Made by a program: the position numbers and the translations under genes
DNA from: Strigamia acuminata
Lineage: Eukaryota > Arthropoda > Chilopoda > Geophilomorpha > Linotaeniidae
Length of the DNA: 64,000 nt
Direction of reading: 5' to 3'
Assembly: GCA_949358305.1 (NCBI GenBank)
Contig: OX442319.1
Location: 620,001-684,000, forward strand
The notes under the pieces: model-generated
Seen by the model: the letters and a program-made list of their open reading frames with translations, nothing else
What the model was told of the DNA's origin: nothing
Database searches by the model: none
Part shown: positions 10,062 to 48,863 of the stretch, one piece after another
Numbering within the stretch: the stretch's first letter is position 1
How the letters are laid out: each line of letters starts with the position of its first letter

Positions 10062-10072
10062 CGGCCCCCTCG
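10062..10072 (-). promoter_or_regulatory. Cop2 polypurine tract
   Basis: On the minus strand GAGGGGGCCGA directly precedes the 3' LTR, in the expected place for the second-strand primer. Confidence 0.65.
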
Positions 10073-10094
10073 TAATATCAAGCGCTTAATACAT

Positions 10095-15376: not shown

Positions 15377-15377
15377 T

Positions 15378-15686: not shown

Positions 15687-15691
15687 AATCA

Positions 15692-17171: not shown

Positions 17172-17648
17172 TGTTACGTGGCTAAATGGGGATTGATTTA
17201 GTCCTACGTGACATGAGTTCATCAAGAAAGACACAGAGTTTTATATGTAATTGCTCTTGGCTTTATTATTTAAAGTCGGACATTTACTCATGTAAATGTT
17301 CGGTCATCAGCTCTTATTACATTTGGTTTATTCTTAAAATATAATTCATTCAAATAAGTAAATAAGGATGATGCTGTTGTCAATTCAATTTCAGGAAACC
17401 TAGTCCTGCCTGACCGTCAACCGGCTGGCAGTAGTAGGTGAAGGTAAAAGTTTGAGAATCAAAAGAGATCTGAGCTCTCTGGCTTAATCAGCTCACTAAG
17501 TAAACTCCTATTCCCCCTATTAACTAAGTTGAACGGTCTGTGCATCTAATTAGGTGCACAGCGCCGTCTAGTGAGAATTCATTGCATTAAATGCCTAAAC
17601 AGAGCGAGCAGAGCCAGCCGATACACGGTACGGCTCTACCGCGTAACA
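17172..17648 (-). repeat. A1 3' LTR
   Basis: 477 bases. Against the 5' LTR it shows a 5-base repeat-unit difference in an ATTCA run and very few substitutions. AGACGGCGCTG, the motif shared with other LTRs here, is present on the minus strand near 17560. Confidence 0.92.
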
Positions 17649-18062
17649 GCCCCCCCCTTTAATTTTTTCGGTCTCTCGAAAAACAATGAATTGTTCTAAC
17701 TAACGCATCTCCTTTTACATAAAAAATTTTCAAATCATAAACACAATTTTACAATTTTGAGAATCTCTTTTCATCATCCTTATTTTTACAAAAATATAAT
17801 ATAACACACTTTTCAATGTTTATAAATGTCATAATCACTTTTTATTACACTTTTACATTGGAAACAATTTCCAAAGTTTAAAATCAATCAAAATTAACAC
17901 TTTCATCAACGATAACACTTTTTGGTTTTTTGTTTTATATTACTTTTTTTTTCTCAGTTTTCAATTTTCTATAAAATAATAAAAAAAACACACACACAAA
18001 AAAAAATGTTCAAAGTTCGTGTCGATTTTACACTTATTCACTTAAAGAAGTTAAAGTTCACT
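17649..18062 (-). other. A1 3' untranslated region with polypurine tract
   Basis: Between the protease gene stop and the 3' LTR. On the minus strand a purine run AAAGGGGGGGGC (about 17649-17660) abuts the LTR as the polypurine tract. The rest is AT-rich with A/T homopolymers and no coding sequence. Confidence 0.75.
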
Positions 18063-19427
18063 TCACTCTCCTCCTTCCGCTTGATCCTTCTTGTCTTCTT
18101 CTTTGATCAATTCGAATGGGAGAATTTCACGATTTGCAATCTCATACACAAATCGTAAGCGTAACTCACACGGCTCCCCAAACTGCATTAAGTCACGGTC
18201 TTCAACGTATCTTCTAATGAAGTAGAGTATGGTTGGGCCACAGCTGTCGTTATCCAATTGGTGCATACGTGGCGGGTCCCAACGTATGAATTTGTTTGGG
18301 AACTTTACTCCTGCATCCACCAACGAGTACCTTAAAGATTCCCACTTTGGATATGTGCGTTCTATTGGTCCGCTTGGATCGTAAAGCACGTATTGGGTTG
18401 GCTTTTTCCGCCAATCCACTATGAAAAGCTGCCAATGCTCTTCAATAGGGACTGGGAACACCCAAATCTTCTTTTGAGCACTTGGAAGTCTCTTCATTAG
18501 CCAATAGATCGCTTCCTTTCGTTTAGCTGGGTCCACCATTTTGAAGACCCAATCAGATTGGAATGGTGCCAATATCGGATATCGCTCTTCTAACAGCTGA
18601 AGATAGTGGTCAACAACGCTGTCATATGTCCAGCTCTGTCGTCCCGGCGTCAGATCGCCTAGTGCTGCCATCTGGTAGTTCATGACTTTAATTGGCGGGC
18701 ATCCTGTGGCGTCGAATGCTAAGTCGTATTTTGGCGCATTACTATAATCTAATGCAAGTCCAAGAGCCTGGACCTGTCGTGCAGCGTCCAACTCCACACG
18801 GTATACCCGTATAGGAGTGGGAAATACTACACTAGGGTCCTGGAAAGACTCTCTTCTCGCTAGGGCGATGGCTTTTAGAATGTTTTTTCTTATTTTCGCC
18901 TCCTGGATCAGCAAAGCATTCGCCCCTGTTCTCCACAACTGGTAGTCGGGCAATCCCATCACTCCTTTTAATTTCCTGGCTCTAATGGCATTGACCATAT
19001 TCCGGTGCTCCATTCGCAAATCATCTAATCGTCGTTTGTTGCGATCGACGGTGTGACGCATTTCTTCTTCCCGGATCCTTTTCGATTGCTCGTCAAACAC
19101 TTTCTTCTTTTGTGCTTTCTTATCTCGTTTCAACTGTCGATTTTTACGACGACGACGTAATAAGCCTTCTTTACCCTTTGTTAATGGTCCTGCATATTTC
19201 TTTTTATCTTCCTCCGCCTTCCGCTTTCCTTCTGTAAACGGGCGTGGGCAGTTAACCAATTCGTCCAAAGTTTTACTTGTGCTGGGCTTATTAGCTAAAT
19301 AACTTTCCAAGTCATCGCCTTTCTTAAGTTGACGTTCCAAAAGATCGCCCACTTGCATCGAGCAAACCGAATCCGCATCACTGTCACTGTCACTGCGCAC
19401 ATCCATCTGATCAAATTTGCTTGCCAT
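18063..19427 (-). CDS. A1 Ulp1/SENP-like cysteine protease (C48) ORF
   Basis: 454 codons, fully open, starting at the ATG at 19427; the A2 copy has an ATG three codons earlier that is TTG-flanked and lost here. The N-terminus is acidic (SDSDSDADS) and the middle is a strongly basic, probably helical region. The C-terminal domain has the C48 signature: His in EEHWQLFIVDW, Asp in VLYDPSG, Gln in RMHQLD and nucleophile Cys in NDSCGPTILYF. Such enzymes cleave SUMO/ubiquitin-like C-termini or, in adenovirus, viral precursors. It lies after pol in the env position, same strand. Substrate and role in the element are unknown. It differs from the A2 copy at about ten residues. Confidence 0.88.
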   Translation of the reverse strand: MASKFDQMDVRSDSDSDADSVCSMQVGDLLERQLKKGDDLESYLANKPSTSKTLDELVNCPRPFTEGKRKAEEDKKKYAGPLTKGKEGLLRRRRKNRQLKRDKKAQKKKVFDEQSKRIREEEMRHTVDRNKRRLDDLRMEHRNMVNAIRARKLKGVMGLPDYQLWRTGANALLIQEAKIRKNILKAIALARRESFQDPSVVFPTPIRVYRVELDAARQVQALGLALDYSNAPKYDLAFDATGCPPIKVMNYQMAALGDLTPGRQSWTYDSVVDHYLQLLEERYPILAPFQSDWVFKMVDPAKRKEAIYWLMKRLPSAQKKIWVFPVPIEEHWQLFIVDWRKKPTQYVLYDPSGPIERTYPKWESLRYSLVDAGVKFPNKFIRWDPPRMHQLDNDSCGPTILYFIRRYVEDRDLMQFGEPCELRLRFVYEIANREILPFELIKEEDKKDQAEGGE

Positions 19428-19715
19428 TTCGTCCAATTTTTTCAACTAATTAGTCACTTGATAATGTATGCACACACTAAAATTTTATTTCGAAGTTTTA
19501 ACACAATTATTTAAGCCTAAATCTCCATTTCACGATGTTATTTTTCACAAAATTCGCGATAGATTCGTTTCGTTTTTTAAGCTATTTGTTCGTCAAATTC
19601 GTTCAAAATTTCACTCTCTTCACTTACGGAATCACACACAAATCAACTGCTGCTATTATTAATGCTTTAGGTTTTCCTTGAGTCACTCAGTAAACCTGGT
19701 TCGTCTCAGAAAACC
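19428..19715 (-). other. A1 spacer between pol and protease gene
   Basis: About 290 non-coding bases. Relative to A2 roughly 150 bases just upstream of the protease start are missing; in A2 that segment ends TTTCTTTTCAAAT...TATTAG, which could be a splice acceptor. Confidence 0.6.
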
Positions 19716-22700
19716 TTAACACAATCCACGATAATCACGACGAGCCTGTTTGCGAAGGCGACGTGACCGGAAACTCTCGATTTCAGGTGGCGACGCGTCA
19801 TCGACTGCGTCAGCGACACCTGTCGGCGGTTTTCGCAATTGATTTTCTTCGTTTTTCCGTTCGTCTTCGTTTTGCCATCTTTCCATGATTTCTTTCGGTC
19901 CATAGAGCGCTTTTAATCGCTCTTTTTCGCTTGGAATTGGGAAATTTGACGTTTTTATTGCATTTTCTTCAGGTTCAAAGAGTGTTTTTAACGAAATTTG
20001 ATCGTCATCGCTAATAAATCGTTCTTTAGCGATTGGAATAGGCGAAATTGATGTGTTTTCTTCAATTTCTTGTTGTTTTTCCTTTTGTGTTGCAATTTCA
20101 TCAGCAAATGTGACTTTTTTAGCTGTTAATTCTTCTAATATTTCCGCTGGAATTTCTTCTCTGGGTTTATACGGTTTTAATCGTTCAACGTTAACAATGT
20201 TTGTTTTCTTTCCATTTGAACTTCTAATTTCGTAGTCATTTGGCGCGGTTCTTCTTACTATTTCGTATGGGCCTGAGAATTGTGGTAGGAGTTTTTCACT
20301 TAACCCAACTTTTCTATTAGGTGTTTTAAGGTAAACTAATTCTCCTGGGTCAAATTCCACATGAACTCGGCCTTGATCGAATCTTTTCCTGCTTTTTTCT
20401 CCTTGCCATTCCAACCTTTCATTTGCTATTTTCCTAGCTTCTCTGATGAATTTCGAGGTTCGCAAGGTGAATTCTTTCTGAGGTAAGTTGAGGTTTACGT
20501 CCACGTTCAAATCGACTTCATATCCTTTCAAAAGATAATAAGGTGTATATCCCGTCGTTTCGTGCACACCGGTATTATACGAGAAAAGCAAAAATGGCAA
20601 AAAATCACCCCAGTCCCTCTGGTCCTTATCAACATAAATCTGTAACATTTTTGCAAATGTCGCGTTAAAACGCTCAGTAAGGCCATTGGTCCTTGGATGG
20701 TACCCTGAAGTGGTTTTGTGTAGGGCTTTAAACATATTTGATACTTCTTCTACCATTTTATTTCTGTATTCTGTGCCTTTATCGCTCTGGATTTCTCTCT
20801 GACTGCCTTCCTTCAACATTAACTCATAAAGCAAAGTTCTAGCTGCTTCCAACGCTGTTGATGCTGGAGCTGCTCTAGCAATCACTGTCCGCGACAAATA
20901 ATCTGTCATTACGAAAACATACTTGTTGCCCTTTTCGGAGGTCGGAAAACTTCCCAATGTATCGATTCCAATCCTCTCGAAAGGCTTAGATATTGTAGAC
21001 CACGGCTGCATTAAACCTTTTGGCGGTGTTGTCATTGATTTCGAGCTCGCGCAATGTGGACAAGAAAGTACGTAATTTCTAACGTCTTTATATATCCGGG
21101 GCCAGAAGAATCTTGTTCTCATTCTCTTCCATGTTTTGTTTAGGCCCAAGTGAGCACCCGTCAGTCCGTCATGCATTTCTTGAAGGACGTCGGTTTTCTA
21201 ATGCTGCGGAACATATAACAGATTTACTTCCGTGTCTAGGGAATTCAAAGAATTTTTCTTCCTAAACAACACATTGTCGAGAAGGACGAACTGCTTTAGA
21301 GGACGTCTTCTCTTCTTCGGAAGCTGCTCTACTTGATTCATTGCGGTGATCAATTCCAGTAGCTTCTTGTCCTTACGCTGCTCAGCAGGAAGGTCGAGCT
21401 GTTCGAGTAAAAGTGAGGGAACTATTTCGTTTTCTTCCTCGCTTAAATCTTCTGGAATTCTGCTCAAGGCGTCGGCATCTTTGTGCGCTTTTCCGCTGTT
21501 GTGGATCACATCGAAATCAAAGTCTACTAGCTTTAAGCTCCATCTAGCTAGTCTGCCGTTGGGGTTTTTTGACTGATTTTAGCTATTGAAGTGCCGAATG
21601 GTCTGTAACGATCTGGAACTTCTTACCGTACAAATAAGGTCGGTACTTTTCAATTCCAAACAGAATGGCCAGACACTCCCTTTCGGTGGCATTGTAATTC
21701 TGTTCTGCTTGGCTGAGAAGTCTGCTGGCATAAGCTATCACATGTTCTTGTTTGTTTATCTTCTGTTTCAACACTGCTCCAAGACCATATGCGCTCGCGT
21801 CAGTCGATACCATGAAGGGTTCTTCAAAATTAGGGTGAGCTAAAACTGGCACGGTTACTAGGGCGGTCCTTAATGTTTTAAAGGCCTTGTCATGAGGTGG
21901 GCCCCAATCGAATTTCTCGTCCTTCTTCGTCAAATTGACTAAGGGCTTGGATATGTCCGCAAAACCTGGAATAAACTTCCTGTAATACGAACAGAGCCCT
22001 ATGAATCCTCGAAGAAGTTTGAGGTTAGTAGGAACTGGAAACTTTGCCACGGATTCCAGGTTCCTAGGGTCTGGTGATATACCCTCAGAGTCCACGACAT
22101 GTCCCAAATACTTAATGGTGTTTGTCCCAAATGTGCACTTGCTCAACTTCACCTTTAAGTTAGATTGTCTAAGCTTGTCGAAAACGTTGTCTAGATCTTT
22201 CAAATGCTGATCAAATGTTTTAGAGAAAATGATAAGGTCGTCAATGTACGCTATACAAACTTTGCCGAGGAGGTTGCCTAAAACTTTATTCATTAACTTT
22301 TGAAAAGCTGCTGGACTATTGCATAATCCCATTCCTAGGACGTTAAACTCAAAATGTCCGCTTGAAGTGGTAAACGCTGTTTTTTCACGATCTTGTTCAT
22401 CTATTTCGACTTGATAATATCCTTGAATAAGATCCATCATGGAGAAGAACTGTGCACCTGCCAGCTGATCTAAAGTATCATCTATTCTTGGCAATGGGTA
22501 CACCATTTTCTTTGTTATCGCATTCAATCGTCTCCAGTCGACACAAAATCTCCACTTACCATCTCTTTTCTTTATTAGCAATACAGGCGCGCTCCAGAGA
22601 CTTTCTGATTCCCTTATCACTCCCATATCAAGCAATTTCTTTGTTTCCTCTGCTTCGACTTCTTTTTCCTTCATAGAACGACGATACGGTTGCAAATGTA

Positions 22701-23661
22701 TTGGTTCATGGTCTCCAGTATCGATTTTATGCTTATACACTTGAACTCTTCCCAAATCCTTGTCAGAAACAGCAAATCTGTCTTGATTCTTTTGAAGAAG
22801 TTGTCGCATTTGCTCTTGTTGGTCTTTATTCATTTTGTCTTTTGCTATTGAGGAGTCAAAGTCAAAACAGTGTACCTGTTTTTCATCAAACACCCCAACA
22901 TCAACCACATAATAAGCTTTTGCGATTGCTGACTTCTCCTTCAGAAAGACTGTCTTCTTGGTTGGATTAGCCACTCGAATGATGCCTTTGCCGTTCTTGA
23001 AATCTGTTAAAGTTTTACAACCTATCACAGCAAATCTATCAGTAACATTATGCAATGGTTGCACCAACATGTCTAATGTAATTGCTTTATTCAAATAGAT
23101 GGGAACAATGCATTCGTGCATTGGTGGAATAGTGATGTTCTTCATTACCCTCGCAACATAATTCTGATCAACAAAAGTTTTATTCATTGGAAATGACACT
23201 TCCTTTCCACTAGTTCGGCCCACAAAGATTTTTTGTTTGTCGTAGTCTAACACGCACTTCGCGAACAGCATGAATGGGTCGCTTAGCAGTAATTCATAAT
23301 GAAATCCTTTAACAATCAGGACCTCGATCCTGTATGTTAATTCACCAATTGTAATGTTCATCTTGGTTTTTCCCATTGGAGTCACAAGTTCTCCGCTTAC
23401 CCCTTGCAATCGAATGTTTGGGCTGGGCGGGTAATTCAACTGTAGAGCTTCAGCAAGCTCTTCGCTGATAACGTTGCGTTTTCCTCCAGTATCCATAACT
23501 GCCTTGACTTCCATGTTGTTCACTATTACTGGAATTTCCAATAGAGATTCTGAAATGTTCATTTCGACTACGATTATCTTCTCTCTTCTTTTCTTTCTTT
23601 TCTTCTTTGGATGGCAACATCTCCCTTGTTGATGGTGACATCTTCTTTGTGGCCGACCCAC
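19716..23661 (-). pseudogene. pol: A1 pol: protease, RT, RNase H, integrase with stops
   Basis: Ty3/gypsy pol. It begins in the frame overlapping the gag stop at about 23661 with aspartic protease MDTGGKRNVISEE, then RT with CVDWRRLNAITKK, MDLIQGYYQVEID, LGMGLCNSPAAFQ and the active site IAYIDDLIIF near 22240, RNase H (STDASAYGLGAVL, TERECLAILFGIEKY), the integrase zinc finger (HDGLTGAHLG ... CPHCASSK) and the integrase core with Asp in IGIDTLGSF, the second Asp in QSDKGTEYRN and Glu in NGLTERFNATF. Against A2, a TGG is now TAG at about 21583, one A is added in the next A-run, and a TTG is TAG at about 21195. The RT domain, deleted in A2, is intact here. Confidence 0.88.
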
Positions 23662-23667
23662 TAGTTT

Positions 23668-23679
23668 TCCTCTTCATGT
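23668..23679 (-). pseudogene. gag: last codons of A1 gag, separated by B1
   Basis: After the B1 insertion the A1 gag frame resumes here (CAT GAA GAG GAA AAC, then TAG just beyond), matching the end of A2 gag. The stop overlaps the pol frame, as in A2. Confidence 0.7.
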
Positions 23680-23996
23680 TGTGACGGTTATAAAACCGTA
23701 TTTTCCCAGATTTATCGCCAGACGGCGCTATTTGATTAAAAGCGCGCATTTTCGAATGAATTGCGACAATTATAATTAATTGTTATAATGATGTGAATAA
23801 ATATAAGATATTTATTAAACATGATAAAGTATTATTTACTTAAACAATTGATTCTACCGAATCAATATTATATTTTATATTTACTTGTTGAAGGGGACCA
23901 ATCGGACCCTTCTTGACCCAATTCCATATTAGGTCCGAACCCCAGTCTATATTAGGTCCGGACTAGTGATCCACGAATCCGTCGATTCAGGCACCT

Positions 23997-27578: not shown

Positions 27579-27582
27579 ATAT

Positions 27583-28075
27583 TGTTACGCGGTAGAGCCG
27601 TACCGTGTATCGGCTGGCTCTGCTCGCTCTGTTTAGGCATTTAATGCAATGAATTCTCACTAGACGGCGCTGCGCACCTAATTAGATGCACAGACCGTTC
27701 AACTTAGTTGATAGGGGGAATAGGAGTTTACTTAGTGAGCTGATTAAGCCAGAGAGCTCAGATCTCTTTTGATTCTCAAACTGTTACCTTCACCTACTAC
27801 TGCCAGCCGGTTGACGGTCAGGCAGGACTAGGTTTCCTGAATTGAATTGAATAAACAACAGCATCATCCTTATTTGATTTGAATGAACCATTTATGTGTT
27901 TTAGGTTTAATAAATGAACAAATGTAATAAGAGCTGATGACCGAACATTTACATTAGTAAATGTCCGACTTTGAACAATAAAGCCAACAGGCATTTTACA
28001 TATAAAACCCTGTGTCATTCTTGATTGAATTCATGTCACGTAGGACTAAATCAATCCCCATTTAGCCACGTAACA
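27583..28075 (+). repeat. A2 5' LTR
   Basis: 493 bases, TGTTACGCGG...CACGTAACA. It contains AGACGGCGCTG at 27662-27672 and AATAAA-type signals near 27910 and 27979. Confidence 0.95.
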
Positions 28076-28609: not shown

Positions 28610-29950
28610 GGCTTCAGTGTGGATAAGCTAGTGAAATTGTCACAATTCAACTTGGATAACCTTCAGGATCTGCAGGATCTGCAGTTACCTGGGCCAAATT
28701 TGAAGAATATCACCACTAGGAAAAGTAAAAACGCTAAATCCGAATCTGACACTGAACCTCAGAAGGAAGATAAAGAAGTCCGATCTCAACCTCAATCAAT
28801 CCTACAGAAATTGGATTTTGCTACTCCAGCAATAAAGTTAATTCCACAAAAAGGTTTAGAAGAAATAATAAAGACATTTACACCAGTAAAGACTAAACCA
28901 GTTCCAATACCAATTGAACCAAATTTTCCAAAAATGACATCACCACAGACTCCAACGGACGTATTGACCGACTTACTGAAGAGTTTGGTAGTGCAGAAGC
29001 GACCAGTCGTCACTTACGATACAGAAAAAGGCAACATCGACCAATGGCTAGTGGCATATGAAGCTACAATAGGAACAGATGATGAGAGAGTAAAACATTT
29101 GGCATTAGCCCTAAAGACTGATGGATTGGCATGGTTTGTGGAACAACTAAAGAAGAATCCGACATGGAAATGGACGGATTGGAAACCACAGATCGAGAAA
29201 AAATTTAGAAGAAGCCAAGAAAATGTTTACAATACTCTCCACTTCATGAAACACAAAGAGGGTACAGCAGATGCCTTCATGAAGAAAGTCTTGGCCGAAT
29301 GTGCGTTTATTCTACCAGAAATGACTGAAACTCAGAAAATAAATTATGTTTACCAAGGTTTGAAGCCTGCAATGCAGAAGATGATGATAACAGTATTTCC
29401 ATCGACGTTAGAAGAAATGGAACAGAGACTTAAATTGTATGAAAGTCACAAAACAGAAGAACCAGCGGATCTACTGCTCACAATGTTCAAAAAAGTAGTA
29501 GATGAAAAGGTGAACCCTACGACAACAGGTATACTGTCTGGAACAGGGGGATCCCCAGTAAGCTACGCCGAGTTATTAGCTGAAAATATTAAATTAAAAC
29601 AGCAAAAGCTCGTTAGTGAGTCAGTAGAGCCACAACAATCGGTTCCATTATTCATACAAGGCGAGTGGTATATTCCAGCATCGCAGCGCGGACAGAACTT
29701 TAGAGGTAGATACAACAGAGGTAGACAGCGGTCAAATAGCAGTCCGACAACAACGCGTTCATGTGGATGTTGGCATCGTTATGGTTGTGAACATAACACA
29801 TCAGCGCCACAGGAGCAACAATCTCAAGAAAATAGAGGGAACCCAAACAACAGAAGGTGGTTTAAGAAGAAAAGGACACAAGGGGGTGGTAAAACTAACC
29901 CTAATCCTAAGCAGAACCCACAACAAGGTCAACAAGAAGAGGAAAACTAG
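28610..29950 (+). CDS. gag: A2 Gag
   Basis: Open frame of about 445 codons after TAA at 28607. The likely original start is the codon at 28619, which now reads GTG (DKLVKLSQFN follows); the first ATG is far inside at about 28934, so either the start codon has mutated or an upstream exon supplies it. A retrotransposon capsid-like region covers about 29030-29450 (DQWLVAYEATIGTDDERVKH, AFMKKVLAECAFILPEM, YVYQGLKPAMQK). The C-terminus is basic and RG-rich (RGQNFRGRYNRGRQR) with a Cys/His cluster CGCWHRYGCEHN in place of a normal CCHC knuckle. The stop TAG at 29948 overlaps the pol frame. Confidence 0.8.
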   Translation, partial: GFSVDKLVKLSQFNLDNLQDLQDLQLPGPNLKNITTRKSKNAKSESDTEPQKEDKEVRSQPQSILQKLDFATPAIKLIPQKGLEEIIKTFTPVKTKPVPIPIEPNFPKMTSPQTPTDVLTDLLKSLVVQKRPVVTYDTEKGNIDQWLVAYEATIGTDDERVKHLALALKTDGLAWFVEQLKKNPTWKWTDWKPQIEKKFRRSQENVYNTLHFMKHKEGTADAFMKKVLAECAFILPEMTETQKINYVYQGLKPAMQKMMITVFPSTLEEMEQRLKLYESHKTEEPADLLLTMFKKVVDEKVNPTTTGILSGTGGSPVSYAELLAENIKLKQQKLVSESVEPQQSVPLFIQGEWYIPASQRGQNFRGRYNRGRQRSNSSPTTTRSCGCWHRYGCEHNTSAPQEQQSQENRGNPNNRRWFKKKRTQGGGKTNPNPKQNPQQGQQEEEN

Positions 29951-30501
29951 TGGGTCGGCCACAAAGAAAATGTTACCATCCAAAGAAGAAAAGAAAGAGT
30001 AGAAGAGAGAAGATAATCGTAGTCAATATGAACATTTCAGAATCTCTATTGGAAATTCCAGTAATAGTGAACAACATGGAAGTCAAGGCAGTTATGGACA
30101 CTGGAGGAAAACGCAATGTTATCAGCGAAGAGCTTGCTGAAGCTCTACAGTTGAATTACCCGCCCAGCCCAAACATTCGATTGCAAGGGGTAAGCGGAGA
30201 ACTTGTGACTCCAATAGGAAAAACCAAGATGAACATTACAATTGGTGAATTAACATACAGGATCGAGGTCCTGATTGTTAAAGGATTTCATTATGAACTA
30301 CTGCTAAGTGACCCATTCATGCTGTTCGCGAAGTGTGTGTTAGACTACGACAAACAAAAAATCTTTGTGGGCCGAACTAGTGGAAAGGAAGTGTCATTTC
30401 CAATGAATAAAACTTTTGTTGATCAGAATTATGTTGCGAGGGTAATGAAGAACATCACAATTCCACCAACGTTTTCGACAAGCTTAGACAATCTAACTTA
30501 A
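29950..30501 (+). pseudogene. pol: A2 pol, aspartic protease part (before the RT deletion)
   Basis: Overlaps the end of gag in the -1 frame. It encodes the basic start GRPQRKCYHPKKKRK and the protease with MDTGGKRNVISEE and LLLSDPFMLFAKC. At about 30470 the sequence jumps from ATTCCACCA to ACGTTTTCGAC; A1 has about 930 more bases between these points, which hold the RT fingers, palm and YIDD site. A CAA microhomology lies at the junction. The deletion shifts the frame and a stop follows at 30499. The gag-pol join is not a canonical slippery heptamer (G GAA AAC before TAG). Confidence 0.85.
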
Positions 30502-30503
30502 AG

Positions 30504-31625
30504 GTGAAGTTGAGCAAGTGCACATTTGGGACAAACACCATCAAGTATTTGGGACATGTAGTGGACTCCGAGGGTATATCACCAGACCCAAGGAATCTGG
30601 AATCCGTAGCTAAGTTTCCAGTTCCTACTAACCTCAAACTTCTTCGAGGATTCATAGGGCTCTGTTCGTATTACAGGAAGTTTATTCCAGGTTTTGCGGA
30701 CATATCCAAGCCCTTAGTCAATTTGACGAAGAAGGACGAGAAATTCGATTGGGGCCCACCTCATGACAAGGCCTTCAAAACATTGAGGACCGCCCTTATC
30801 ACCGTGCCAGTGCTTGCGCACCCTAATTTTGAAGAACCCTTCATGGTATCGACAGACGCGAGCGCATACGGTCTTGGAGCAGTGTTGAAACAGAAGATAA
30901 ACAAACAAGAACATGTGATAGCTTATGCCAGCAGACTTCTCAGCCAAGCAGAACAGAATTACACAGCCACAGAAAGGGAATGTCTGGCCATTCTGTTTGG
31001 AATTGAAAAGTACCGACCTTATCTGTATGGTAAGAAGTTCCAGATAATTACAGACCATTCGGCACTCCAATGGCTGAAATCAGTCAAAAACCCCAATGGC
31101 AGACTAGCTAGATGGAGCCTACAGCTAGTAGACTTTGATTTCGATGTGATCCACAAGAGCGGAAAAGCGCACAAAGATGCCGACGCCTTGAGCAGAATTC
31201 CAGAAGATTTAAGCGAGGAAGAAAACGAAATAGTTCCCTCACTTTTACTCGAACAGCTCGACCTTCCTGCTGAGCAGCGTAAGGACAAGAAGCTACTGGA
31301 ATTGATCACCGCAATGAATCAAGGAGAGCAACTTCCGAAGAAGAGAAGACGTCCTCTAAAGCAGTTCGTCCTTCTCGACAATGTGTTGTTTAGGAAGAAA
31401 AATTCTTTGAATTCCCTAGACACGGAAGTAAATCTGTTATATGTTCCGCAGCATTTGAAAACTGCAGTTCTTGAAGAAATGCATGACGGACTGACGGGTG
31501 CTCACTTGGGCCTAAACAAAACGTGGAAGAGAATGAGAACAAGATTCTTCTGGCCCCGGCTATATATAAAGACGTTAGAAATTACGTACTTTCTTGTCCA
31601 CATTGCGCGAGCTCGAAATCAATGA
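30504..31625 (+). pseudogene. pol: A2 pol, end of RT, RNase H and integrase zinc finger
   Basis: Picks up after the RT deletion with LSKCTFGTNTIKYLGHVVD, then the RNase H domain (STDASAYGLGAVLKQ, TERECLAILFGIEKY, ITDHSALQWLKS, DADALSRIP) and the start of the integrase zinc finger (HDGLTGAHLGLNKTWKRM). At about 31556, CTATAT stands where A1 has ATAT, a 2-base insertion that throws the frame off; it ends at 31625. The TGG mutated to TAG in A1 is intact here. Confidence 0.87.
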
Positions 31626-32821
31626 CAACAGCGCCAAAAGGTTTAATGCAGCCGTGGTCTACAATATCTAAGCCTTTCGAGAGGATTGGAATCGATACAT
31701 TGGGAAGTTTTCCGACCTCCGATAAGGGCAACAAGTATGTTTTCGTAATGACAGATTATTTGTCGCGGACAGTGATTGCTAGAGCAGCTCCAGCATCAAC
31801 AGCGTTGGAAGCAGCTAGAAGTTTGCTTTATGAGTTAATGTTGAAGGAAGGCAGTCCGAGAGAAATCCTGAGCGATAGAGGCACAGAATACAGAAACAAA
31901 ATGGTAGAAGAAGTATCAAATATGTTTAAAGCCCTACACAAAACCACTTCAGGGTACCATCCAAGGACCAATGGCCTTACAGAAAGATTTAATGCGACGT
32001 TTGCAAAAATGTTGCAGATTTATGTTGATAAGGACCAGAGGGACTGGGATGATTTTTTGCCATTTTTGCTTTTCTCATATAATACCGGTGTGCATGAAAC
32101 GACAGGATATACACCTTATTATCTTTTGAAAGGATATGAAGTTGATTTGAACGTGGACGTAAACCTCAACTTACCTCAAAAAGAATTTACCTTGCGAACC
32201 TCAAAATTCATCAGAGAAGCTAGGAAGATAGCAAATGAAAGGTTGGAGTGGCAAGGAGAAAAAAGCAGAAGAAGATTCGATCAAGGCCGAGTTCATGTGG
32301 AATTTGATCCAGGAGAATTAGTTTATCTCAAAACACCCAATAGAAAAGTTGGGTTAAGTGAAAAACTCCTACCACAGTTCTCAGGCCCATACGAAATAGT
32401 AAGAAGAACCGCGCCAAATGACTACGAAATTAGAAGTTCAAATGGAAAGAAAACAGATATTGTCAACATTGAACGATTAAAACCGTATAAACCCAGAGAA
32501 GAAATTCCAGCGGAGATATTAGAAGAATTGACAGCTAAAAAAGTCACATTTGCCGATGAAAATGCAACACAGAGTGAAAAACAACAAGAAATTGAAGAAA
32601 ACACATCAATTTCGCCAATTCCAATCGCTAAAGAACGATTTATTAGCGATGACGACCAAATTTCGTTAAAAACACTCTTTGAACCTGAAGAAAATGCAAT
32701 AAAAATGTCAAATTTCCCAATTCCAAGCGAAAAAGAGCGATTAAAAGCGCTCTATGGACCGAAAGAAATTATGGAAAGATGGCAAAACGAAGACGAACGG
32801 AAAAACGAAGGAAATCAATAG
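31559..32821 (+). pseudogene. pol: A2 pol, integrase core and C-terminus
   Basis: Continues integrase after the 2-base insertion: IYKDVRNYVLSCPHCASSK completes the HHCC finger, followed by the DDE core (Asp in IGIDTLGSF, Asp in ILSDRGTEY, Glu in NGLTERFNATF) and a GPY-type tail (LPQFSGPYEIVRRTAPNDYE). The frame ends with TAG at 32819, where A1 has TTG and continues for 40 more codons. The core residues are all present. Confidence 0.87.
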
Positions 32822-33356
32822 CGAAAACCGCCGACAGGTGTCGCTGACGCAGTCGATGACGCGTCGCCACCTGAAATCGAGAGTTTCCGGTCACGTCGCC
32901 TTCGCAAACAGGCTCGTCGTGACTACAGTGGATTGTGTTAAGGTTTTCTGAGACGAACCAGGTTTACTGTGTGACTCAAAGAAACCTAAAGCATTAATAA
33001 CAGCAGCAGTTGATTTGTGTGTGATTCCGTAAGTGAAAAGAGTGGATTTTGAACGAATTTGGCGAACAAATAGCTTAAAAACGAAACGAATCTATCGCGA
33101 ATTCTGTGAGAAAATAACATCGCGAAATGGAAATTTAGGCTTAAATAATTGTGTTAAATCTTCGAAATGAAATTTTAGTGTGTGCATATATTATCAAGTG
33201 ACTAATTAGTTGAAGAATTGTTAAATTTAGTGTAATTTAGTGTAACATGAAATGTTATATGAAATAATGAATGGAAATTGGAAAAATTTTGTGAAAATTT
33301 TGAATTAATGAATTAATTTATTTTATTTTCTTTTCAAATAAAATATTAGAATCCGA
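32822..33356 (+). other. A2 spacer between pol and protease gene
   Basis: The first 120 bases are the former pol C-terminal tail still coding in A1. The rest is AT-rich. Just before the next ATG a pyrimidine-rich stretch ends TATTAG at 33349 or so, a possible splice acceptor for a subgenomic mRNA; A1 lacks this piece. Confidence 0.5.
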
Positions 33357-34730
33357 ATGGACGAAATGGCAAGCAAATTTGATCGGATGGATGTGCGTAG
33401 TGACAGTGACAGCGATGCGGATTCGGTTTGCTCGATGCAAGTGGGCGATCTTTTGGAACGTCAACTTAAGAAAGGCGATGACTTGGAAATTTATTTAGCA
33501 AATAAGCCGAGCACAAGTAAAACTTTGGACGAATTGGTTAACTGCCCACGCCCGTTTACAGAGGGAAAACAAAAGGCGGAGGAAGACAAAAAGAAATATG
33601 CAGGACCATTAACAAAGGGTGAAGAAGGCTTATTGCGTCGTCGTCGTAAGAATCGACAATTGAAACGAGATAAGAAAGCACAAAAGAAGAAAGTGTTTGA
33701 CGAGCAATCGAAAAGAATCCGGGAAGAAGAAATGCGTCACACCGTTGATCGAAACAAACGCCGATTAAATGATTTGCGAATGGAGCACCGGAATATGGTC
33801 AACGCCATTAGAGCCAGGAAATTAAAAGGAGTGATGGGATTGCCCGACTACCAGTTGTGGAGAACAGGGGCGAATGCTTTGCTGATCCAGGAGGCGAAGA
33901 TAAGAAAAAATATTTTAAAAGCCATCGCCCTAGCGAGAAGAGAGTCCTTCCAGGACCCTAGTGTAGTGTTTCCCACTCCTATACGGGTATACCGTGTGGA
34001 GTTGGACGCTGCACGACAGGTCCAGGCTCTCGGACTTGCATTAGATTATAGTAATGCGCCAAAATATGACTTAGCATTCGACGCCGTAGGTTGTCCGCCG
34101 ATTAAAGTCATGAACTATCAGATGGCAGCATTAGGCGATCTAACGCCGGGACGACAGAGCTGGACGTATGACAGCGTCGTTGATCACTACCTCCAACTGT
34201 TAGAAGAACGATATCCCATATTGGCACCAATTCAATCTGAGTGGGTCTTCAAAATGGTGGACCCAGCTAAACGAAAGGAAGCGATCTATTGGCTAATGAA
34301 GAGACTTCCAAGTGCTCAAAAGAAGATTTGGGTGTTTCCAGTTCCTATTGAAGAGCATTGGCAGCTTTTCATAGTGGATTGGCGGAAAAAGCCAACCCAA
34401 TACGTGCTTTATGACCCAAGCGGACCAATAGAGCGCACATATCCAAAGTGGGAATCTTTAAGATACTCGTTGATGGATGCAGGAGTAAAGTTTCCAAACA
34501 AATTCATACGTTGGGACCCGCCACGTATGCACCAATTGGATAATGACAGCTGTGGCCCAACCATACTCTACTTCACTAGAAGATACGTTGAAGACCGTGA
34601 CTTAATGCAGTTTGGGGAGCCATGTGAGTTACGCTTACGATTTGTGTACGAGATTGCAAATCGTGAAATTCTCCCATTCGAATTGATCAAAGAAGAAGAT
34701 AAGAAGGATCAAGCGGAAGGAGGAGAGTGA
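33357..34730 (+). CDS. A2 Ulp1/SENP-like cysteine protease (C48) ORF
   Basis: 457 codons from ATG 33357 (MDEMASKFDRMDVRSDSD). Layout: acidic N-terminus; basic, probably helical region around residues 93-190 (RRRRKNRQLKRDKK); C-terminal cysteine protease domain. Catalytic residues read directly: His334 in EEHWQLF, Asp353 in LYDPSG, Gln393 in MHQLD and Cys399 in DSCGPTILYF, the order and context of Ulp1/SENP and adenovirus-type proteases (clan CE). The gene follows pol, same strand, and ends about 400 bases before the 3' LTR. Only about ten residues differ from the A1 copy, with no indel. Role unknown: removing SUMO-like modifiers, opposing host silencing, or processing Gag are possibilities, none shown. 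Confidence 0.88.
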   Translation: MDEMASKFDRMDVRSDSDSDADSVCSMQVGDLLERQLKKGDDLEIYLANKPSTSKTLDELVNCPRPFTEGKQKAEEDKKKYAGPLTKGEEGLLRRRRKNRQLKRDKKAQKKKVFDEQSKRIREEEMRHTVDRNKRRLNDLRMEHRNMVNAIRARKLKGVMGLPDYQLWRTGANALLIQEAKIRKNILKAIALARRESFQDPSVVFPTPIRVYRVELDAARQVQALGLALDYSNAPKYDLAFDAVGCPPIKVMNYQMAALGDLTPGRQSWTYDSVVDHYLQLLEERYPILAPIQSEWVFKMVDPAKRKEAIYWLMKRLPSAQKKIWVFPVPIEEHWQLFIVDWRKKPTQYVLYDPSGPIERTYPKWESLRYSLMDAGVKFPNKFIRWDPPRMHQLDNDSCGPTILYFTRRYVEDRDLMQFGEPCELRLRFVYEIANREILPFELIKEEDKKDQAEGGE

Positions 34731-35142: not shown

Positions 35143-35635
35143 TGTTACGCGGTAGAGCCGTACCGTGTATCGGCTGGCTCTGCTCGCTCTGTTTAGGCAT
35201 TTAATGCAATGAATTCTCACTAGACGGCGCTGCGCACCTAATTAGATGCACAGACCGTTCAACTTAGTTGATAGGGGGAATAGGAGTTTACTTAGTGAGC
35301 TGATTAAGCCAGAGAGCTCAGATCTCTTTTGATTCTCAAACTGTTACCTTCACCTACTACTGCCAGCCGGTTGACGGTCAGGCAGGACTAGGTTTCCTGA
35401 ATTGAATTGAATAAACAACAGCATCATCCTTATTTGATTTGAATGAACCATTTATGTGTTTTAGGTTTAATAAATGAACAAATGTAATAAGAGCTGATGA
35501 CCGAACATTTACATTAGTAAATGTCCGACTTTGAACAATAAAGCCAACAGGCATTTTACATATAAAACCCTGTGTCATTCTTGATTGAATTCATGTCACG
35601 TAGGACTAAATCAATCCCCATTTAGCCACGTAACA
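35143..35635 (+). repeat. A2 3' LTR
   Basis: 493 bases, apparently identical to 27583-28075, followed by the target duplication ATAT. Confidence 0.95.
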
Positions 35636-35639
35636 ATAT

Positions 35640-39833: not shown

Positions 39834-39837
39834 ATGT

Positions 39838-40637
39838 TGACCTTGTTGTGGGTTCTGCTTAGGATTAGGGTTAGTTTTACCACCCCCTTGTGTCCTTTTC
39901 TTCTTAAACCACCTTTTGTTGTTTGGGTTCCCTCTATTTTCTTGAGATTGTTGCTCCTGTGGCGCTGATGTGTTATGTTCACAACCATAACGATGCCAAC
40001 ATCCACATGAACGCGTTGTTGTCGGACTGCTATTTGACCGCTGTCTACCTCTGTTGTATCTACCTCTAAAGTTCTGTCCGCGCTGCGATGCTGGAATATA
40101 CCACTCGCCTTGTATGAATAATGGAACCGATTGTTGTGGCTCTACCGACTCACTTACGAGCTTTTGCTGTTTTAATTTGATATTTTCAGCTAGTAACTCG
40201 GCGTAGCTTACTGGGGATCCCCCTGTTCCAGACAGTATACCTGTTGTCGTAGGGTTCACCTTTTCATCTACTACTTTTTTGAACATTGTGAGCAGTAGAT
40301 CCGCTGGTTCTTCTGTTTTGTGACTTTCATACAATTTAAGTCTCTGTTCCATTTCTTCTAACGTTGATGGAAATACCGTTATCATCATCTTCTGCATTGC
40401 AGGCTTCAAACCTTGGTAAACGTAATTTATTTTCTGAGTTTCAGTCATTTCTGGTAGAATAAACGCACATTCGGCCAAGACTTTCTTCATGAAGGCATCT
40501 GCTGTACCCTCTTTATGTTTCATAAAGTGGAGAGTATTATAAACATTTTCTTGGCTTCTTCTGAATTTTTTCTCGATCTGTGGTTTCCAATCCGTCCATT
40601 TCCATGTCGGATTCTTCTTAAATTGATCAATTTTCAA
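39838..40637 (-). pseudogene. gag: A1 gag, C-terminal part
   Basis: Minus-strand frame matching A2 Gag from KKNPTWKWTDWKPQIEKKF to the end of the basic tail (QQGQ), including CGCWHRYGCEHN. It begins at a deletion that removed the leader end and about 180 N-terminal codons; the junction carries four TTTTCAA-type units (about 40626-40658). At 39838 it is split by B1; the final codons lie at 23668-23679. Not functional alone. Confidence 0.88.
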
Positions 40638-40658
40638 TTTTCAATTTTCAATTTTCAA
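40626..40658. repeat. short (TTTTCAA)n tandem repeat at A1 deletion junction
   Basis: Four copies of a 7-base unit mark the join between A1 leader and truncated gag; probably made during deletion repair or template switching. Confidence 0.7.
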
Positions 40659-40764
40659 GTTTTTATTTCTAGATTTTTATTAAATTATTTTGGCAATTTT
40701 AATCCAATTTTAATGGGATTTTTAAATCTAAACGGGCCACAATCGAGACCCCATCTCCACCAGT

Positions 40765-41246
40765 TGTTACGTGGCTAAATGGGGATTGATTTAGTCCTAC
40801 GTGACATGAGTTCATCAAGAAAGACACAGAGTTTTATATGTAATTGCTCTTGGCTTTATTATTCAAAGTCGGACATTTACTCATGTAAATGTTCGGTCAT
40901 CAGCTCTTATTACATTTGGTTTATTCTTAAAATATAATTCATTCAAATAAGTAAATAAGGATGATGCTGTTGTCAATTCAATTCAATTTCAGGAAACCTA
41001 GTCCTGCCTGACCGTCAACCGGCTGGCAGTAGTAGGTGAAGGTAAAAGTTTGAGAATCAAAAGAGATCTGAGCTCTCTGGCTTAATCAGCTCACTAAGTA
41101 AACTCCTATTCCCCCTATTAACTAAGTTGAACGGTCTGTGCATCTAATTAGGTGCACAGCGCCGTCTAGTGAGAATTCATTGCATTAAATGCCTAAACAG
41201 AGCGAGCAGAGCCAGCCGATACACGGTACGGCTCTACCGCGTAACA
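40765..41246 (-). repeat. A1 5' LTR
   Basis: 482 bases, right-hand partner of 17172-17648. On the minus strand the primer site TGGTGGAGATGGGG follows it at about 40751-40762. Flanked by ATAT at 41247. Confidence 0.92.
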
Positions 41247-45409: not shown

Positions 45410-45507
45410 ATTCTTTTGGGTAACCGCTTGAGTAAAGTGGTAGTGAGAGATTAATAAGTGACTCATACCACGAGTTAGCGACAGAAAGAGTTGAGCGCGA
45501 CAAGCTT
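45410..45507. other. junction between element D LTR and A3
   Basis: About 100 bases that match neither neighbour. They could be original flanking DNA or the leader of a deleted element. No motif assigned. Confidence 0.3.
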
Positions 45508-47766
45508 AGAACAGCGAATCTCAAAGTTAAGCTGAGCAAATGTACGTTTGCGACACACACCATACGATATCTCGGACATGTGGTTGATGCTGAAGGTATT
45601 TCACCGGATCCCAGGAATCTGGATTCAGTAGCTAAGTTTCCAATTCCTGTGAACGTTAAACAACTACGTGGTTTTCTTGGATTATGCTCGTATTACCGGA
45701 AGTTCATCGCTGGTTTTGCGGACATTTCCAAACCTCTGGTGAATTTAACCAAAAAGGATGAAAAGTTTGACTGGGGGCCACCCCACGACAAAGCATTCCA
45801 CACGCTTCGAACAGCATTAATAACAGTGCCGGTGTTAGCGCATCCAAACTTCGCTCAGCCTTTCATGATTTCAACTAATGCAAGTACCTACGGCTTAGGA
45901 GCAATTCTAAAACAAAAAGTCAACAACCAAGAGCGTGTTATCGCTTATGCAAGTCGTTTAATGAGCACAGCTGAACAGAATTACACCGCAACTGAAAGAG
46001 AAATGTTAGCCATCATTTTTGCAATAGAGAAATTTAGACCGTACTTGTATGGACAGAAATTCCAGATTATCACCGACCATTCGGCCCTCCAATGGCTGAA
46101 AGGAGTCCGAAATCCAAACGGACGTCTAGCCAGGTGGGCGCTGCAGTTAGCTGATTATGATTTTGAAATATTTCATAAGAGCGGCAAGAAACATACAGAT
46201 GCCGATGCTTTGAGTAGGATCCAGGAAGAATTAAGTGAAGAAGAAATAGAAAAATTACCTTCGCTTTTCTTAGAAAACTTGGACCTCCCTGTTGAACAGA
46301 GGAAGGATCCCAAACTACTGGACCTAATAACAGCGCTAGAAAACCAAGAGCAACTTCCAAGAAAAAGAAAACGACCACTCAAGCAGTTCGTTCTTCAAAA
46401 CAAAACGTTGTTCAGGAAGAAAATACTTAACAGTTCCCTGAACATGGAAGATTTACTACTAGTAGTTCCGAAACAACTTCAAAAAGATGTATTGTATGAA
46501 ATGCACGATGGATTACTAGGAGCTCATTTGGGATTGGCAAAAACGTGGAAACGAATAAGAACACGATTCTTCTGGACAAGAATCTACAAAGATGTGAGAA
46601 ATTATGTCTTGTCCTGCCAGCACTGCGCAAAAGCAAAAACAATGACAATGCCAGCTAAAGGATTAATGCAGCCATGGTCAACAGTTTCAAAACCTTTTGA
46701 GCGAATTGGAATAGATACACTTGGACCTTTTCCATTGTCACGTCTTGGAAATAAACATGTTTTTGTTGTAACTGATTATCTTTCGAGATCTGCAATAGCT
46801 AGACCAGCAGCAGCAGCTACGGCATTAGAAGCAGCGAAAACATTGCTTTATGAAGTTATTCTGAAAGAAGGCAGTCCAAGAGAAATCCTAAGCGACCGTG
46901 GAACGGAATACAGGAATAAAATGGTTGAAGAAGTCTCAAATATGTTTAAAAGTTTGCATAAAACTACGTCAGGATACCATCCAAGAACAAACGGATTAAC
47001 TGAGAGATTTAACGCGACATTCACAAAAATGTTGCAAAGTTACGTCAACGACGAACACACTGACTGGGACGAATTTCTTCCATTTCTTCTGTTTTCGTAC
47101 AACACGGGCGTTCATGAAACAACAGGATATACACCACATTATTTACTTCGTGGATATGATGTGGATTTGACAGTAGATGTAAATCTGGATTTGCCACAGA
47201 AAGAATTTACATTAAGGACAGCAAAATTCATTCGAGCAGCCAGGAAAATTGCAAATGAGAGACTTGAAAAACAGTCTGCAAAAAGCAAGAAAAGGTTTGA
47301 TGAAGACAGAGTCAACAAAGAATTTGAACCAGGTGAATTGGTTTATTTGAAAACCATCAATAGAAAAGTTGGCTTGTCAGAGAAGCTTTTACCGCAATTT
47401 TCCGGCCCTTATGAAATTGTGCGAAGAACTGCACCTAATGACTATGAAATAATCAATTCAACAAGAAAGAAAAGTGACATAGTGAATGTGGAACGATTGA
47501 AACCATACAAAGAACGAGTAGAAACAGAAATAGACGAAGCTTTGAAAGAATTGCCAGAAAAGAAAGTGAAATTTGCTGATAAAGTTAAGAAAATCAGTGA
47601 AAAAGGTGAAATTGTAGTTGAAAGCACAGAAAAAATTGTTAAAAAGACGAAAATCAAACCAAAAGAACGTTATATAGATGATACAGAACAAATCTCATTG
47701 AAATCGCTATTTGAACCACAGCCTACGATAGAAACGAACGAAAATCAACTCAAAAATCCGCCATAA
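45508..47766 (+). CDS. pol: A3 pol fragment: end of RT, RNase H, integrase
   Basis: One open frame of about 750 codons. It begins DKLRTANLKVKLSKCTF and contains RNase H (STNASTYGLGAILKQ, TEREMLAIIFAIEKF, ITDHSALQWLKG, DADALSRI), the integrase zinc finger (HDGLLGAHLGLAKTWK ... CQHCAKAK), the DDE core (Asp in IGIDTLGPF, Asp in ILSDRGTEY, Glu in NGLTERFNATF) and the GPY tail (LPQFSGPYEIVRRTAP). In RNase H the usual first Asp of STDAS is Asn, which should disable it. Despite the missing 5' half, the frame has no stop. It ends NQLKNPP, near where A2 has its premature stop, so the A1 extension may be secondary. Confidence 0.88.
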   Translation, partial: RTANLKVKLSKCTFATHTIRYLGHVVDAEGISPDPRNLDSVAKFPIPVNVKQLRGFLGLCSYYRKFIAGFADISKPLVNLTKKDEKFDWGPPHDKAFHTLRTALITVPVLAHPNFAQPFMISTNASTYGLGAILKQKVNNQERVIAYASRLMSTAEQNYTATEREMLAIIFAIEKFRPYLYGQKFQIITDHSALQWLKGVRNPNGRLARWALQLADYDFEIFHKSGKKHTDADALSRIQEELSEEEIEKLPSLFLENLDLPVEQRKDPKLLDLITALENQEQLPRKRKRPLKQFVLQNKTLFRKKILNSSLNMEDLLLVVPKQLQKDVLYEMHDGLLGAHLGLAKTWKRIRTRFFWTRIYKDVRNYVLSCQHCAKAKTMTMPAKGLMQPWSTVSKPFERIGIDTLGPFPLSRLGNKHVFVVTDYLSRSAIARPAAAATALEAAKTLLYEVILKEGSPREILSDRGTEYRNKMVEEVSNMFKSLHKTTSGYHPRTNGLTERFNATFTKMLQSYVNDEHTDWDEFLPFLLFSYNTGVHETTGYTPHYLLRGYDVDLTVDVNLDLPQKEFTLRTAKFIRAARKIANERLEKQSAKSKKRFDEDRVNKEFEPGELVYLKTINRKVGLSEKLLPQFSGPYEIVRRTAPNDYEIINSTRKKSDIVNVERLKPYKERVETEIDEALKELPEKKVKFADKVKKISEKGEIVVESTEKIVKKTKIKPKERYIDDTEQISLKSLFEPQPTIETNENQLKNPP

Positions 47767-48750
47767 GATGGCGCAAACACACAAACGAACGATTTCCGGT
47801 CGCACAAACTCAGACCGCAAAAGAGGAAAGATAATCGCCATTGCTATTGATTTTGATCAAGGTGAACGCGTGTTATAAGCGTGACCCGAGACAAAATTCT
47901 GATTGATATTGTTATTACTTTGCTTGATAGTGTGTTTCCAAAGGTTTGTGAGAAAGTGTTGAATAATTTTATGTGATTTTTAAAGATGAATTTTGTGAAT
48001 TCTTAGCGTCTTTGTGAACGAATTTCGTTAAATGAAACCAATCGCCATGTTGGTTCATTCGTGTTAAAACTTGAATAAAAAGGAAAGTTTTAGATTAAAT
48101 TGTGATAATCAGAGGTTAAACTGAATAAAATATTGTTATGAAATGAAGTAGTTTAAAGAAACTAAAAGAAATTAAATAAATGGTGGTGAAAATGACAGGG
48201 GACGTGAAAGGACCCATCGCGACCTTCGTCAGCTGCACTGAATCTTATTAGGCTTATTAAATTGGATTGAATTTTGAAATAATTAAAAGTTGGAATTAAT
48301 AAAGTAACAGTTTGAATTAAAAATGAATTGTGATAGCACGAATGACCAAGGAAGCGAAAGGAATCTATCGCGAATTTCGTTTGAAAGTTTAATAAATGAA
48401 GAATTTTGACAAATTTGATGTAAATATTTCACGATATAGTTTTGATTAAGTATTGTTAAGAATTGATTATTGTAAATAATGGAAATAAGTTGATGTTTGA
48501 TATTGTTATATGTTTTTACGGAAAATTTAGGAAAATGATAAGAGAAAAAATTTTAAGAAATTTTGAAATGTTATTAACTTTAGAGAAGAAAAGGAAAGAG
48601 TTGTAACTTGTTTTTTTTGTGTGTTTTTGAAGGTTTATATTGGGAAATGGTCATGGATAATTTCGTTAATTAATTTTAGCAATAGTGTATATCATGATTT
48701 TGAAAATGTCTAATTTCATTTTTGTTTTATTTCATTTTTCTTCATTTTTC
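47767..48750 (+). other. A3 spacer replacing most of the Ulp1-like gene
   Basis: About 980 AT-rich bases with no supported gene. By comparison with A2 it includes the pol-protease spacer; the first roughly 400 codons of the protease gene are not recognisable. Confidence 0.55.
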
Positions 48751-48863
48751 CCAATGATCTTGTATTTCGCCCGCCGCTACTTAGAGAATCGAGATCTAAT
48801 GAAGTTGGCAGACGGCGTGGATCTCCGAGCGCGAATTATCTACGAGATTAACCAAGGAAAGTT
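48751..48863 (+). pseudogene. A3 Ulp1-like gene, C-terminal remnant
   Basis: ILYFARRYLENRDLMKLAD and the following YEINQGK align with the end of the A1/A2 protease (ILYFTRRYVEDRDLMQFGE, YEIANRE), just after the catalytic Cys. The catalytic part is gone. B2 cuts it at 48863; the last codons (EPFEEI and stop) are at 63240-63261, in phase. Confidence 0.8.

Follow-up and report, generated by a model that had tools for sequence, protein, structure and literature searches.

A predicted Ulp1/SENP-like protease gene behind pol in Ty3/gypsy retrotransposons of Strigamia acuminata

A stretch of 64,000 nt of the genome of the centipede Strigamia acuminata (contig OX442319.1 of assembly GCA_949358305.1, positions 620,001-684,000, forward strand), here called the window and used as the reference for all positions, contains three copies (A1, A2 and A3) of a family of long terminal repeat (LTR) retrotransposons of the Ty3/gypsy type. 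In addition to gag and pol, the family carries a third open reading frame (ORF), ORF3, which almost certainly encodes a C48-like (Ulp1/SENP-type) cysteine protease and which, alongside gag and pol, is a standard gene of this Ty3/gypsy lineage, itself diversified and recently active. A first reading made from the letters alone (the sequence-only reading) had proposed an LTR family with its own gene of this kind, and the proposal is upheld by a family profile, by residues invariant in 15 of 15 proteins, by 92 scored copies and by the signature of purifying selection. The protein is very probably an active isopeptidase and its substrate is probably the small ubiquitin-like modifier SUMO. Taken as a whole, the explanation that we favour, with more reserve, is that of a soluble and probably nuclear SUMO protease that would weaken SUMO-dependent silencing.

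Assignment of ORF3 to the C48 proteases

ORF3 is found in the window at three places:

33357-34730, plus strand: A2 ORF3, SENP/Ulp1-like cysteine protease gene, 457 codons from ATG to stop
18063-19436, minus strand: A1 ORF3, the same gene as A2 ORF3; the aligned start codon (19434-19436) is TTG and the first ATG lies at 19427
48739-48849, plus strand: A3 ORF3 remnant, 37 aligned residues, without the Cys motif

The intact A2 frame and its four readable residues are as the sequence-only reading gave them. The N-terminus of the protein is acidic, its middle is basic, and the protease domain occupies approximately residues 250-440, with His334, Asp353, Gln393 and Cys399 as the putative catalytic residues. 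The A1 frame, previously reported as intact at 18063-19427, is indeed open, but only from its second methionine; the aligned start is TTG, and a stretch of some 140 nt ahead of it is missing. The A3 remnant is also real, but it is smaller than the 48751-48863 described earlier and has lost the Cys motif.

Scanned singly against Pfam, the two window proteins provide little help for the assignment. A scan of the A2 protein gave no match and the A1 protein reached 11 bits against a cut-off of 20.7, both of which weigh against a C48 identity. The assignment rests on the phmmer match to SENP1 and on a family profile, for which 15 ORF3 proteins of this genome, with identities to A2 down to 32%, were aligned. 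The hidden Markov model check that the sequence-only reading had suggested gives nothing for A2 and a score below cut-off for A1 when each is taken singly, and succeeds for the family. In particular, a phmmer search of A2 ORF3 against the PDB sequences returned 15 matches at E<=1, of which 14 were SENP/Ulp1 (best SENP1, E 2.2e-4) and the fifteenth a pseudouridine synthase (E 0.97). With the family profile, all 17 matches at E<=1 were SENP1, SENP5, SENP2, SENP3, Ulp1 or XopD, the best being SENP1 at E 7.3e-11 and about 44 bits over profile positions 253-442, that is, the C-terminal part. In this alignment the catalytic His, Asp, Gln and Cys of SENP1 coincide with those of ORF3 in the same order and Trp269 and Trp335 are aligned as well; all six residues are invariant in the 15 ORF3 proteins. 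We take the two aligned Trp residues to form, in SENP1, the tunnel for the Gly-Gly tail, and it is from these two residues alone that cleavage of SUMO or another ubiquitin-like protein after Gly-Gly is predicted. PF02902 was found at E<=1 in 14 of the 15 members (best 1.2e-4), the sole exception being A2 itself, and hhalign matched ORF3 to a profile of three other Ulp1 ORFs from the genome with 77% probability (E 2e-5) over a region spanning the triad, against 0.6% for a control alignment with the pol profile. The likeness to cellular SENP1, SENP2 and Ulp1 thus concerns the His-Asp-Gln-Cys order, the two Trp residues and the domain length, with the match at about 44 bits obtained only via the family profile; the N-terminal half of ORF3 had no match.

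Which modifier is recognized is less firmly indicated than the protease class. Members of this protease family differ in specificity, and ORF3 may have kept the fold while acting on NEDD8, ubiquitin or a similar protein, for example to keep one of the element's proteins from being degraded or to inhibit a restriction factor. The distance of the SENP1 match by the family profile is consistent with this alternative, and a SENP-like sequence as such leaves the modifier open to NEDD8 or another ubiquitin-like protein, which counts against the SUMO reading. However, all 17 PDB matches are SUMO proteases and SENP8/NEDP1 is absent among them, and a modifier other than SUMO seems rather unlikely.

A second alternative, put forward for Gag in the sequence-only reading, is that ORF3 serves as a maturation protease for the Gag or Pol polyprotein, comparable to adenain in adenovirus. 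C48 proteases belong to the same cysteine-protease clan as viral maturation enzymes, and two adenain-type matches in pol, at alignment columns 437 and 871, are common to all eight elements compared. Conversely, the element encodes its own aspartic protease, no Gly-Gly pair is common to all eight elements in either gag or pol, and the PDB matches of the family profile are confined to SENP, Ulp1 and XopD, with no sequence match to adenain (C5) among the 17. A role in maturation is thus highly improbable.

Relatives beyond this genome were sought with the A2 protein and the family alignment in a set of 5.8 billion proteins; of the 8000 candidates that were scored, none reached E<=0.001, in a set believed to be mainly prokaryotic and viral, which says little on other animals. 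In IMG/VR, likewise believed to be mainly prokaryotic and viral, seven stretches fitted a pattern and none was confirmed.

Copies of the family and their architecture

A search of the genome (237.5 Mb in 157 contigs) found 510 candidates; scoring of the best 93 produced 94 rows, which by a hand count represent at least 92 copies of ORF3: 73 with a full uninterrupted frame, five open but partial and 14 with stops. As the best candidates were scored, the sample leans towards intact copies and the true total may be higher. The copies form at least five subfamilies with identities down to 32%. Integrase sequence was present in 46 of 48 ORF3 loci (L001 and L028 being the same copy), and 44 of the 47 distinct copies have it ahead of ORF3 in the same orientation; in L020 it is on the opposite strand, and in L027 it is some 4 kb off, behind other repeats.

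Twenty loci of 9.9 kb each, taken to span the identity range, reveal the organization of the element. LTR pairs of at least 450 nt, 99.6-100% identical, flank gag, pol and ORF3 in L010, L011, L014, L015, L016, L025 and L028. LTR pieces occur on both sides of the locus in L019, L023 and L026, and in L022 a pair surrounds a shortened interior; the other 9 of the 20 have no such pair, which is partly due to broken copies or to excised stretches of insufficient length. Several elements are both complete (LTR-gag-pol-ORF3-LTR) and young. All three genes are open in L010, L011, L014 and L028, while pol has a stop in L015 and L025 and a frame break in L016. In eight loci pol is a single open frame of 1193 to 1360 codons, and in ten (L010, L011, L013, L014, L015, L016, L019, L023, L025 and L028) it lies in the -1 frame of gag with an overlap of 13-37 nt, which is absent in L018. 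The distance from pol to ORF3 is about 0.4-0.9 kb. TG...CA LTRs, 4-bp target duplications and a polypurine tract were present in the seven elements examined (L010, L014, L015, L016, L025, L028 and the A2 copy of the window), and a candidate tRNA primer site, TGGTGGAG, lies close behind the LTR end in eight of eight copies. The target duplications of the same seven elements all read NTAT (ATAT, CTAT or GTAT), and the TAT ending possibly reflects a target preference of the element.

The copies in the window comprise the following parts in addition to ORF3:

27583-28075, plus strand: A2 5' LTR (TGTTACG...CGTAACA), with an ATAT target duplication at 27579-27582
28610-29947, plus strand: A2 gag open frame, with a weak Ty3_capsid match below cut-off
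29950-30498, plus strand: A2 pol, aspartic protease segment, after which a deletion of about 930 nt in the reverse transcriptase breaks the gene
30504-32818, plus strand: A2 pol, segment for RNase H and integrase, spread over two frames
33315-33349, plus strand: A2 possible splice acceptor, T-rich and ending in AG 7 nt upstream of the ORF3 ATG; weak here, with stronger sites in most of the further copies scored
35130-35142, plus strand: A2 polypurine tract, abutting the 3' LTR
35143-35635, plus strand: A2 3' LTR, same sequence as the 5' LTR, with an ATAT target duplication at 35636-35639
17171-17648, minus strand: A1 3' LTR
19716-21176, minus strand: A1 pol, integrase part
21583-23661, minus strand: A1 pol, part with aspartic protease, reverse transcriptase and RNase H
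39835-40763, minus strand: A1 5' interior (the leader with a portion of gag), separated from the remainder by another LTR element
40764-41246, minus strand: A1 5' LTR
45498-47766, plus strand: A3 pol remnant (RNase H, integrase), DNA about 71% identical to the A family

As the sequence-only reading had it, the protease frame stands behind a Ty3-type pol in the env position: in both A1 and A2 it is preceded by protease, RNase H and integrase, with the reverse transcriptase still present in A1. The Pfam matches of the A1 pieces give the order protease, reverse transcriptase, RNase H, integrase, as in Ty3/gypsy (Metaviridae). Every copy in the window is damaged and ORF3 is nevertheless open in A1 and A2; indeed, since about 930 nt of pol, the reverse transcriptase among them, are gone from A2, only its ORF3 and its LTRs (493 nt each, identical) are clearly whole. 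By the repeat pattern, A2 sits within an LTR element, its repeats beginning at 23680 and at 38406, that itself splits A1 into 40764-41246 plus 39835-40763 and 17171-23681 (minus strand). The A1 LTR pair is identical across the listed repeats of 269 and 220 nt, and the nest is therefore young. A3 is cut, at 48864, by a related LTR element.

The gag frame of the family has about 100 open codons upstream of its first in-frame ATG (28610-28933 in A2), and this extension is recognizably conserved inside each of two clades; in L010 the gag ATG lies 315 nt inside the open frame. Translation of gag may begin at a non-ATG codon or at a start supplied by a spliced leader exon.

Selection, inheritance and possible function

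Comparison of A1, A2 and other copies, which the sequence-only reading had proposed as a check, speaks for a maintained gene. By Nei-Gojobori counts, 49 synonymous and 11 nonsynonymous changes separate ORF3 of A1 from that of A2, a ratio of nonsynonymous to synonymous rates (dN/dS) of 0.05, and values of 0 to 0.14 were obtained in 10 of 11 unsaturated pairs, the exception being L012/L013 with 0.39 on 12 changes. In comparable pairs the ranges are 0.06-0.24 for gag, 0.06-0.12 for pol and 0.05-0.13 for ORF3. ORF3 is under strong purifying selection, with a constraint like that on pol. Together with the profile E-value of 7e-11, the 49 against 11 changes between A1 and A2 indicate that the match to SENP/Ulp1 is not due to chance. 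LTR elements can capture additional ORFs (PMC5408684), and ORF3 might be such a captured host fragment, carried as a functionless passenger. Against this stand the low dN/dS values in the 10 of 11 pairs, a triad invariant at 32% identity and the 73 uninterrupted frames among 92 scored copies (with scoring that favours intact ones), which render a passenger extremely improbable. A single capture in two elements with neutral decay elsewhere was rejected in view of the 92 scored copies, the subfamilies, at least five in number, and the purifying selection.

The trees of gag, pol and ORF3 for eight elements are concordant in their two clades and in the pairs L010/L016 and L013/L014; in the ORF3 tree, L028 was flagged as a possible long-branch case. 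By tree shape, they show ORF3 as inherited together with gag and pol, and the earlier claim that the gene was already in the family ancestor holds within this genome on these grounds, the A3 remnant alone being insufficient for it.

Co-inheritance is accompanied by uneven divergence. ORF3 has a larger synonymous distance than pol in six of the eight pairs for which both values exist, and a lower one in L010/L011 and L021/L023. In L019/L023 the synonymous distance is 0.37 for gag and 0.44 for pol, whereas ORF3 is saturated (proportion of synonymous differences, pS, 0.84); in L013/L014 gag and pol are both at 0.54 and ORF3 is again saturated; in L010/L016 gag and pol are at 0.16 and ORF3 is at 0.43. 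Along the DNA of L019 and L023, identity is 82-96% over gag and most of pol; where pol ends it begins to drop, reaching 59-69% in ORF3, and it then returns to about 80% for 500 nt past this gene and is 65% towards the LTR. The simplest account of this pattern would be a swap of the ORF3 block by template switching; alternatively, the block alone may change faster, without exchange. If ORF3 is a cassette exchanged in this way, its saturation at gag and pol distances of 0.37-0.54 (L019/L023 and L013/L014) would be as expected of an arms race over the host target.

As regards the protein itself, none of the five ORF3 proteins examined has a hydrophobic stretch of transmembrane strength, and in all five the start is acidic and residues 81-165 bear a net charge of +13 to +19. 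A soluble and perhaps nuclear enzyme is therefore more probable than an envelope protein, a candidate that was rejected because ORF3 has no stretch of transmembrane strength. The expression of ORF3 was considered with splice scores based on uncalibrated tables. A T-rich stretch with an AG lies 5-7 nt upstream of the ORF3 start in the subfamilies of A2, L010, L013, L014 and L017 and 42-46 nt upstream in L018, L019, L021, L022, L023 and L027, and in 13 of 16 copies the acceptor-like site ranks no lower than 25th among all AGs of its element. Given this AG just upstream of the start, ORF3 is likely made from a spliced subgenomic message, as is the case for env. Several observations weigh against this: the acceptor ranks poorly in A2 (138th of 615 AGs), L028 (61st of 677) and L017 (57th of 644), it is missing in A1, and no splice donor is common to all 12 copies scored.

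In the mechanism that we propose, a soluble ORF3 protein would be translated from the spliced message and its basic N-terminal half would take it into the nucleus. There, it would cut after the terminal Gly-Gly of SUMO, or of a protein closely related to SUMO, and remove the modifier from chromatin-bound silencing factors, so that LTR transcription or new copies would escape small-RNA-guided heterochromatin. Removal of SUMO from host silencing factors was among the functions suggested in the sequence-only reading. In flies the SUMO ligase Su(var)2-10 participates in piRNA-guided silencing (PMC7272611), and in worms (elegans) Argonaute-directed silencing needs SUMOylation of HDA-1 (PMC8131101). 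These roles of SUMO make silencing complexes the most plausible target of ORF3, and host silencing as its main target is the likeliest single reading of its function, one that we hold tentatively. In addition, the yeast retrotransposon Ty1 is derepressed when Ulp1 tethering is lost (PMC8585004), which speaks for the proposal with the limit that this case is one of a mislocalised SUMO protease altering Ty1 transcription, not of derepression by more protease. With still less confidence, ORF3 could be at once a counter-defence gene that strips SUMO from small-RNA-guided heterochromatin effectors and an env-like diversifying cassette that moves among gag-pol backbones.

The target may also lie within the element, as the sequence-only reading had likewise suggested, in that ORF3 would deSUMOylate the element's own Gag or integrase for assembly, nuclear import or integration. 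The co-inheritance of ORF3 with gag and pol fits this alternative, as do the SUMO consensus sites of gag: each protein has between 1 and 4, L014 being high with 4, and shuffled sequences give 1.0 to 1.3. However, no site is common to the eight gag proteins, and the eight pol proteins (L010, L013, L014, L016, L018, L019, L023 and L028) have none at all, against 3.2 to 4.6 in shuffles (P 0.009 to 0.033 each, the tests not being independent and the absence noticed after the fact). As controls in the window, another Ty3 pol has one site against 3.3 shuffled and a copia pol has 3 against 3.0. These counts cover consensus motifs, and non-consensus sites remain possible. With no common site in gag and none in pol, the element's own proteins are not obvious substrates, and this role is unlikely.

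Comparison with known mobile elements and neighbouring sequence

C48-type domains are already known from mobile elements. Ulp1 domains are described in the non-LTR retrotransposons NeSL and Utopia (PMC4640811), which resemble the A family in being retrotransposons that encode a Ulp1-like protease. These elements have a restriction-like endonuclease and the protease is N-terminal in the reverse transcriptase protein, whereas the A family has LTRs, an integrase and a separate ORF3 behind pol. Ulp1 domains also occur in the Ginger1 and Mutator-like (MULE) DNA transposons (PMC2836005), in agreement with what the sequence-only reading stated for some DNA transposons; the likeness is a C48-type domain on a mobile element, and the Ginger1 integrase is of the Gypsy type, but the domain is fused to the transposase, unlike ORF3.

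Other systems are similar in layout. Bdelloid rotifer LTR retrotransposons have an enzyme gene in the env position, with an ORF3 encoding a DEDDy exonuclease or a GDSL esterase reported from spliced messages (PMC5408684). The enzymes are different, and the terms Ulp, SUMO and OTU are absent from the main text of that article. Ty3/gypsy elements of Phalaenopsis carry an ORF for an AlkB-type m6A demethylase (PMC9289625) and thus also combine a Ty3 element with an added enzyme gene, differing in the enzyme and in the plant host. In Errantivirus, the env-bearing Ty3 elements of insects, the third ORF is an env glycoprotein with signal and transmembrane segments, whereas that of the A family is a protease devoid of a transmembrane-strength stretch. 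The available parts of the articles on Troyka (PMC12440569) and on Copia capsids (PMC11835246) contain, respectively, no Ulp1 or SUMO and Ulp1 as a bench tool only.

No Ulp1/SENP-like gene in an LTR retrotransposon is described among the matches listed in the open-licence literature, as far as these sources were available; Repbase entries lay outside the search, so that a database entry may exist. The enzyme class itself is known in mobile elements; what appears to be new is that it forms a third gene of its own in Ty3/gypsy elements, which we have not found described. If the reading is correct, an element with its own SUMO protease would turn the notion that transposons fight back into a directly testable animal case, a link that follows from the part of SUMO in fly piRNA-guided and worm Argonaute-directed silencing. 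Together with the rotifer elements, it would also show that LTR elements can house, where env would stand, enzymes directed at the host.

A possible donor was sought among the Ulp1 genes of the same genome: in 8 of 29 PF02902 places compared, none was close to ORF3, the best being L031 at 19.0 bits. L029, an ORF with MULE, SWIM, Ulp1 and PHD matches, is not specially close to ORF3 (3.9 bits); its Ulp1 score occurs equally at six places. L030 and L031 are two related ORFs with Ulp1 domains and no further Pfam match.

The window contains other mobile elements as well. A second large LTR element, whose LTR copies begin at 48864 and at 61482, has gag at 51755-53983 and pol at 54019-58179, followed by its own third ORF at 59245-60729 (494 codons from GTG), which shows Cys-rich zinc-finger-like clusters and a basic stretch and has no Pfam match worth the name. 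Finally, Copia-type sequence at 6701-17201 includes a gag-pol frame of 1231 codons at 10930-14625 (minus strand), a frame of 1025 codons at 6701-9778 and an RVT_2 ORF at 15648-17201.
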